41,363 nt of DNA. Origin: Leptolyngbya sp. DLM2.Bin27. GTDB lineage: Bacteria > Cyanobacteriota > Cyanobacteriia > Phormidesmidales > Phormidesmidaceae. Under the pieces are notes generated by a model, which was not told the DNA's origin, made no database searches, and was given only the letters and a program-made list of their open reading frames with translations. Shown piece after piece: positions 19,694-21,206 of this stretch. The stretch spans positions 1 through 41,363 of the forward strand of contig RECJ01000159.1 of the NCBI GenBank assembly GCA_007694115.1. The letters run 5' to 3'. The number at the start of each line of letters is the position of its first letter. Position 1 is the first letter of the stretch. A program made the translations under genes and the position numbers.

Positions 19694-20476
19694 CTATCTT
19701 TCCTGTTTCCCCAGCCGTGCTCCAGTGCGCAAAATCTGCCCAGCCAATACCGCTGCGCCAAAGCCGTTGTCAATGTTGACCACGCCGATGCCTGCGGCGC
19801 AGGAATTGAGCATGGTCAGTAGGGCCGACAGCCCGTTGAAGCTGGCCCCGTAGCCGACGCTGGTGGGCACCGCCACGATCGGACAGTCGGCCAGGCCCGC
19901 AACTACGCTGGGCAATGCGCCTTCCATGCCCGCTACCACAATCAGCACATCTACATCGCGAATCAGCTGGCGGTGGCGCAGCAGCCGGTGCAGCCCGGCC
20001 ACCCCCACATCCCACAGGCGCTTGACCGCAAAGCCGCTGAGCTCAGCGGTGATGGCAGCTTCTTCGGCCACGGGCAGGTCGGCGGTACCAGCGGTGAGAA
20101 TGCCGATGGTGCCAGGGTGCTGGGCCTTCCAGTTGAGGGGGACTAGGGCGCAGATGCGGGCCATATCGTAGTACAGCGCCGCTGGAATCTGCTGCTGCAC
20201 CTGGGCAAATACCTCTGGCTCAATCCGGGTCGCCATCACCACCGGGTTTTGCTGGTGCAGGCTGCGCATGATCTGGACAATCTGGGGCACGGTTTTGCCC
20301 GGCCCCCAGATCACTTCAGGAAAGCCTGTTCTAAGGGTGCGGTGGTGATCGACCTTGGCAAAGTCGTCAATGGGTTCAAAGTCGAGGTACTTAAGCTGGT
20401 CAAAGGCGGTTTCGGGGCTAAGCTGCCCTTGGGAAACAGCGTTGAGCAAGGCGCGCAGGGTATCGGGCTGAGTCAC
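19694..20476 (-). CDS. larB: Nickel pincer cofactor biosynthesis protein LarB (AIR carboxylase-like)
   Basis: FAKVDHHRTLRTGFPEVIWGPGKT, ILTAGTADLPVAEEAAITAE, VVAGMEGALPSVVAGL, PTSVGYGASFNGLSALLTMLNSCA. Confidence 0.93.
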   Translation of the reverse strand: MTQPDTLRALLNAVSQGQLSPETAFDQLKYLDFEPIDDFAKVDHHRTLRTGFPEVIWGPGKTVPQIVQIMRSLHQQNPVVMATRIEPEVFAQVQQQIPAALYYDMARICALVPLNWKAQHPGTIGILTAGTADLPVAEEAAITAELSGFAVKRLWDVGVAGLHRLLRHRQLIRDVDVLIVVAGMEGALPSVVAGLADCPIVAVPTSVGYGASFNGLSALLTMLNSCAAGIGVVNIDNGFGAAVLAGQILRTGARLGKQER

Positions 20477-20552
20477 AGAGCAAGGAGTGGCGGGGTTAGG
20501 AAAAACAAACGCTCAGTCAGCCCCGGTAAGAGCTTTAAAAAACGTCACAGGG

Positions 20553-20581
20553 TTGACATATCTAGGCTACCTCAGTGACAT
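20553..20581 (+). promoter_or_regulatory. Putative promoter (-35 TTGACA at 20553-20558; weak -10 at ~20576-20581)
   Basis: TTGACA-17 nt-TGACAT. Confidence 0.4.
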
Positions 20582-20587
20582 ACGCGG

Positions 20588-20658
20588 CCTCTACATTAAT
20601 TATTAATCGTTCACTCCTCAACACCCTCAGCGCCGGACCTAGCTCCGGCGCTTTTTTG
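20588..20658 (+). ncRNA. Yfr1-like small RNA candidate
   Basis: ~70 nt: promoter-like TTGACA, AT-rich ATTAATTATTAAT, CU-rich single-stranded UUCACUCCUCAACACCCUC, then intrinsic terminator AGCGCCGGA-cctagc-TCCGGCGCTTTTTT. Confidence 0.5.
20629..20657 (+). terminator. Rho-independent terminator with T6 tract
   Basis: AGCGCCGGA (20629-20637) / TCCGGCGCT (20644-20652) followed by TTTTTT; no plus-strand protein gene ends here. Confidence 0.9.
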
Positions 20659-20843
20659 TTCGTCCTTTTTTGTTTGTCTGTGGGGGAGGGTCACCATCGG
20701 TCGTCGCTGCTGGCTCGCTGGCTTTTTAGGGCCTGGGCATCCGGAAAGCCCAGGGAAGCGCTGTATTAATTAAACACAGTCCATCTGGCCCGCCTTTGGG
20801 CCTAGAGGGTATCAGCTTCTGTCCTGACGCTAATGTAAATCCT

Positions 20844-21206
20844 ATGAAACGGCATCTATGTGCGATCGCCCTGGCCAGTCTGGGGCTCAGTTTCCTCTCG
20901 CTGCCCGCCAGCGCTCGGCCTGAGATTGCCAGTGGTGACCAGCTTTTGACTACCGACATCGACGGCTGCCTGGCCCGGGCCGATCGCCTAATTGCCAACC
21001 TGGGGGTACAGTCTGACCAGGGCAGTATTGACCGCACCGGCTATTTCGAGGATGGTGCCTTTCGCATTCTTTGCTACGGGGCTGGCGATGACAGCAGTCT
21101 AGCGGTGGTGTTTGCCACCCACGAACAGTCAACGGAAGTGGCCTCTAGCTTTGTTCAGATGATGCTGAGCGAGCTGTCGAGCAGCGAGGCGGTTTCTCAG
21201 CAGTAG
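20844..21206 (+). CDS. Secreted hypothetical protein
   Basis: Internal ATG at 20844 gives signal peptide MKRHLCAIALASLGLSFLSLPASA. Confidence 0.7.
   Translation: MKRHLCAIALASLGLSFLSLPASARPEIASGDQLLTTDIDGCLARADRLIANLGVQSDQGSIDRTGYFEDGAFRILCYGAGDDSSLAVVFATHEQSTEVASSFVQMMLSELSSSEAVSQQ

Follow-up and report, generated by a model that had tools for sequence, protein, structure and literature searches.

To our knowledge, nearly all cyanobacteria possess the small RNA Yfr1 (RF01116), whose core motif shows full conservation across clades. In described Yfr1 RNAs a 5' stem-loop with 6-10 bp accompanies the fully conserved sequence ACUCCUCACAC (PMC2190773). Through this motif, Yfr1 of Nostoc acts as a repressor of envelope and porin mRNAs, mainly at the translation initiation region (PMC6974561). 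Prochlorococcus possesses second RNAs with the Yfr1 motif, namely Yfr10, Yfr12 and Yfr18 (PMC2518516, PMC6778093), so that the kind of RNA reported here is already known. Like Yfr10 and Yfr18, the RNA described below is a second Yfr1-motif RNA alongside a true Yfr1, but their motif is unchanged and their genes adjoin Yfr2-family RNAs (PMC2518516, PMC6778093), whereas here the motif forms a 5' tail, carries an inserted A and lies next to larB. In Yfr10, whose expression responds to light and darkness, the motif is situated in a loop atop a stem (PMC6778093), in contrast to the unpaired 5' tail of the larB-linked core. Yfr12 of Prochlorococcus MED4 is likewise a mutated-motif relative of Yfr1 and Yfr10, with two C-to-U changes (PMC2518516) instead of an insertion. 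An insertion within the motif, fixed in a genus, in an RNA without 5' hairpin and located at larB was not found in the literature searched. A genus that keeps Yfr1 together with a hairpin-less copy bearing a fixed insertion represents a natural experiment on the retargeting of an sRNA seed.

Gene architecture beside larB

The window is the entire analyzed stretch of 41,363 nucleotides of contig RECJ01000159.1. A Yfr1-like sRNA with a predicted transcript of ~53 nt is located at 20605..20657 on the plus strand (78 bits with the covariance model R1, whose alignment includes this sequence). It is divergent from its constant neighbor larB (19694..20476, minus strand; AIR-carboxylase-like, nickel-pincer cofactor gene, PF00731 E=1.5e-15), and position 20844 marks the start of the plus-strand CDS that follows. 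The sRNA gene consists of the apparently single-stranded block AAUCGUUCACUCCUCAACACC and a strong terminator; the block AATCGTTCACTCCTCAACACC begins at 20605, 5' of a GC-rich hairpin (20629-20652) and six T. The block AATCGTTCACTCCTCAACAC (20605..20624, plus strand), the predicted pairing region, is identical in 24/24 genomes, unpaired in the predicted fold, and corresponds to a Yfr1 core to which a single A has been added (ACUCCUCA-A-CAC); the core ACTCCTCAACACC is read directly at 20612-20624 (plus strand). The intrinsic terminator (20629..20657, plus strand), supported by fold and covariation, comprises a 9-bp stem (20629-20637/20644-20652), a 6-nt loop and T6 (20652-20657). Two elements of the original prediction are borne out here: a strong plus-strand terminator where no plus-strand gene ends, and an unpaired CU-rich segment 5' of it. 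The 5' end, originally placed at 20588, probably lies near 20604-20605, as derived from the position of a probable -10 box, TACATT (TANNNT; 20592..20597, plus strand).

The 71-nt stretch first singled out folds 5.15 sd better than dinucleotide shuffles. Terminator-like patterns are common by themselves (2 found in the region vs 1.7 expected), and the evidence for the element beyond chance is comparative, namely 20 invariant nucleotides in 24 genomes and a covarying terminator.

The Rfam scan of the window yielded no family above cut-off. Under relaxed settings the best match at the element was Yfr1, with 20.6 bits against a cut-off of 38 and the core aligned with the inserted A; matches to suhB/mmgR and MIAT were far under cut-off and are attributed to chance. 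A search for Yfr1 elsewhere in the same genome (G000) detected a canonical copy on another contig (C232:13481-13546, 52.8 bits). A canonical Yfr1 at the larB locus is ruled out by the low score together with the true Yfr1 elsewhere, and because of the latter the element is not the divergent Yfr1 of its genome, which was one of the two readings originally offered. Canonical Yfr1 was above cut-off in 37 of the 40 genomes of the relatives search; these genes have the 5' stem typical of Yfr1, in which compensatory variants occur (CGGAGAC/GUUUCCG, CUGAAAC/GUUUCAG), and their upstream region is a different one.

The larB-linked RNA and Yfr1 are both short and intergenic. In each, the CGUUCACUCCUCA...CACC core is unpaired and followed by a GC-rich terminator hairpin with U-tail, and an action on porin and envelope mRNAs at their Shine-Dalgarno regions is plausible, for the larB-linked RNA on the basis of computed complementarity. 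The larB-linked RNA differs in the extra A, in promoter and locus, and in its coexistence with Yfr1: ACUCCUCAACAC replaces ACUCCUCACAC in 24/24 genomes, and neither fold nor consensus contains a 5' helix, for which there would be no room since the -10 box leaves only ~7 nt before the core (predicted start). Regarding the Yfr1 layout suggested originally, the CU-rich, Yfr1-related core before a terminator in an sRNA-like unit holds, whereas the Yfr1 5' stem-loop is missing. Because it departs from Yfr1 in three defining features and from Yfr10 in one, the larB-linked RNA was filed under neither, although it very likely works like them.

Conservation in the genus and occurrence outside it

For the filamentous cyanobacterial genus concerned, Nodosilinea in GTDB, the larB loci were fetched and their upstream flanks inspected, which gave 25 loci with usable flank, including that of the window. 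The 20 nt of AATCGTTCACTCCTCAACAC, extra A included, are unchanged and followed by the terminator in 24 of these loci; the exception (G020) has only a degenerate CCTCAACACC and a hairpin. The additional A noticed in the core is genuine and is conserved in all 24 genomes that carry the block. The terminator varies in sequence while its pairs covary (98.8% of cells paired and double changes in 5/9 pairs across the 24 genomes), with a covariation score reached by 0/500 shuffles and far lower values in slid controls. The original prediction was to be given up if a canonical Yfr1 elsewhere coincided with a lack of conservation at this locus; the first was found, but the locus is conserved in 24/25 cases. 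In several genomes another gene lies downstream, while the sRNA and larB remain together. A role as leader of the downstream exported-protein gene was rejected, since that gene is replaced in some genomes and the sRNA stays.

The model R1, built from the larB-linked RNA, separated the genomes of the class bimodally: all 24 loci of the genus scored 62-83 bits, and everything else in the 291 genomes reached at most 37.3 bits. The best matches within the genus all adjoin larB. Outside the genus, a larB-linked relative (CACUUCUCACACC) was found only in one genome of a sister genus, G043, which also holds the best match in the remainder of the order (34.5 bits; larB-linked CGUUUCACUUCUCACACC and terminator), and the 28 larB loci of other genera of the family, two of them not orientable by the motif script, yielded a candidate in G043 only. 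The score of 37.3 bits belongs to a small-genome cyanobacterium in which an intact ACUCCUCACACC precedes a terminator. When all GTDB r220 species were scanned for an exact 18-mer, 18 loci were obtained, of which 17 are records of this cyanobacterial group and one belongs to the Anaerolineae; no terminator follows the latter, which is presumably a chance match. Near position 1500 of locus L317 (G286), from a small-genome cyanobacterium of another family, the Yfr1 motif GTCGACTCCTCACACC precedes a terminator and, with no clear Yfr1 5' stem in evidence, possibly belongs to a Yfr10-type RNA.

Start-site complementarity and its interpretation

A total of 67 SLH/OprB-type porin loci was collected in the genus, with the family assigned from the query and start codons assigned by script (a few of them uncertain); all energies given are bare duplex energies without accessibility. 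The Yfr1 complement GTGT(G/A)AGG occurs at most 60 nt before the assigned start in 55 of the 67 sampled loci, at whose start sites Yfr1 pairs perfectly with GGUGUGAGG. At GTGT(G/A)AGG sites Yfr1 typically reaches -23 to -28 kcal/mol vs -17 to -23 kcal/mol for the larB-linked RNA with its A bulged, a cost of several kcal/mol for the extra A. The larB-linked RNA, in contrast, pairs perfectly with UGUUGAGGAGUG sites, which lie 5' of a different porin gene and of the gene for a small exported protein. The order is inverted at the TGTTGAGGAGTG sites that precede a porin gene in genomes G001 and G015 (-25.6/-25.0 kcal/mol for the larB-linked RNA vs -19.5/-19.1 kcal/mol for Yfr1). Regarding the exported-protein gene (124 aa), GGTGTTGAGGAGTG precedes it in G007, G018 and G024, with a weaker inversion (-26.9 for the larB-linked RNA vs -24.3 for Yfr1), and a close variant does so in G041; in most genomes the site is GGTGTCAAGGAG, with which both RNAs pair about equally. 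The collected porin 5' regions provide clean target sets on which both RNAs can be tested.

In the genus, almost every SLH/OprB porin gene (loci L190-L259; e.g., L234 and L203 in the genome of the window) carries GGTGTGAGGAG, a perfect Yfr1 site, just 5' of the start codon; it is wholly absent from the porin subgroup L250-L252. The gene of a ~132-aa exported protein (L295, L306, L310, L324-L344) has an almost invariant leader, GAGTTGAGGAGGCTTGGCCATGGGCATTCAA, genus-wide, which includes GTTGAGGAG.

No single genus-wide target with a perfect site of 12-13 nt emerged, and the matches of the exact 12-mer scan were mostly genome-specific; the only exact TGTTGAGGAGTG in the window's own genome is the complement of the sRNA gene itself. 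Although nearly invariant before the small exported protein, GTTGAGGAG is treated only as a lead because it has 9 nt, mostly Shine-Dalgarno, and exact counts of it near ATG were only modestly above a reversed-pattern control. Start-site complementarity is partly trivial, since CUCCUC is a general anti-Shine-Dalgarno string. The target list is thus a predicted one and is put forward as a hypothesis, because bare duplex energies were used and CUCCUC fits any Shine-Dalgarno sequence.

The genome of the window also encodes Yfr2, with GUGUGAGGAGCGAAC in its 5' part; the Cyano-1 family is taken here to be Yfr2. Its computed duplex is stronger with Yfr1 (-24.3) than with the larB-linked RNA (-20.5).

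With a probability of roughly 0.6, the larB-linked element is a second, genus-level, trans-acting sRNA of the Yfr1 type, ~53 nt long, without 5' stem-loop and with a shifted register. Conservation, terminator, larB linkage, complementarity and the joint presence with canonical Yfr1 and, for the genome of the window, with Yfr2 are read from the sequences themselves. The RNA would be transcribed from its own promoter, divergent from larB, and would stem from a duplicated or re-derived Yfr1 that lost its 5' hairpin and gained one A in the pairing motif; a paralogous origin from Yfr1 is most likely, although the ~18 shared nucleotides cannot prove paralogy. Its exposed 5' tail AAUCGUUCACUCCUCAACACC may pair with Shine-Dalgarno regions of mRNAs and block ribosome access, as for Yfr1. 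Because of the extra A, the register GUGUUGAGGAGUG should be favored over the Yfr1 register GGUGUGAGG, and the Yfr1 antagonist Yfr2 would be expected to hold the RNA less tightly. The duplex energies suggest that the extra A is a specificity switch, which may redirect the RNA to a different set of cell-envelope genes. Going further, a single inserted nucleotide may have turned one regulator into two parallel sRNAs whose seed registers are nearly orthogonal (GGUGUGAGG vs GGUGUUGAGG), and mRNA start sites may have followed, so that one base would sort the envelope genes between the two; this is possible, with the odds somewhat against it.

That the RNA is a redundant second Yfr1 sharing the targets of the first, with the A accommodated as a bulge and the promoter (i.e., the conditions of expression) as the only difference that matters, as is partly the case for Prochlorococcus Yfr10, appears unlikely. 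In favor of this reading, a bulged A still allows pairing with the common porin site GGTGTGAGGAG at about -17 to -23 kcal/mol, the two upstream regions appear unrelated, as the boxes of the larB-linked RNA are not found before Yfr1, and in MED4 Yfr10 has the motif and part of the targets in common with Yfr1 (PMC6778093); yet the extra A has remained unchanged in 24 species even though losing it would re-establish Yfr1 pairing, and some porin and exported-protein sites are perfect matches to the A-containing register. That the RNA acts mainly on RNA regulators, setting the level of free Yfr1 as decoy for or partner of Yfr2 (Cyano-1) or another sRNA, is quite improbable: precisely the pairing with Yfr2 is weakened by the insertion (from -24.3 to -20.5), and no Yfr2-type RNA with GUGUUGAGGAG was recognized among the exact matches inspected, even though the GUGUGAGGAGCGAAC-bearing Yfr2 still pairs at -20.5 and pairing of Yfr1 and Yfr10 with Yfr2 is established in MED4 (PMC6778093). 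Very improbable, finally, is a cis element (leader, attenuator or larB promoter) instead of a free sRNA; the element always adjoins and diverges from larB, and part of the upstream block also occurs 5' of larB in genera without the sRNA, but the terminator is directed away from larB, the invariant block lies between the -10 box and the terminator, and the gene downstream varies.

Divergent promoter region

The comparison of 24 genomes revealed a conserved divergent promoter region with TGACA-type boxes (GTCAC-AGGG-TTGACATA ... CAGTGACATA) at 20543..20582, the boxes being possible activator or larB promoter elements. The sequence TANNNT is found at the same offset in 23 of the 24 genomes and is shifted by one base (TATAGT) in locus L054. 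TTGACA (20553-20558), originally associated with the sRNA promoter, is disfavored as its -35 box: since 9 of the 24 genomes have TTGTCA (13 have TTGACA) and the distance to the conserved -10 box is 33 bp, an activator or larB element is the likelier interpretation. GTGACA is present in 18/24 genomes. The CTAGGCTA part of the upstream block probably serves larB, because it is also found 5' of larB in genera without the sRNA.

At 20543-20559 the divergent larB/sRNA promoter contains GTCACAGGGTTGACATA (TGTCACAGGGTTGACA in relatives), an inverted repeat TGTCA-N6-TGACA and possible transcription-factor site. Between the sRNA terminator and the gene of the MKRHL exported protein, the motif ATCCGGAAA is kept in most genomes with that gene in this position; the copy of the window (GGCATCCGGAAAGC, 20735-20750) occupies the loop of a hairpin that CCTGGGC/GCCCAGG may form.
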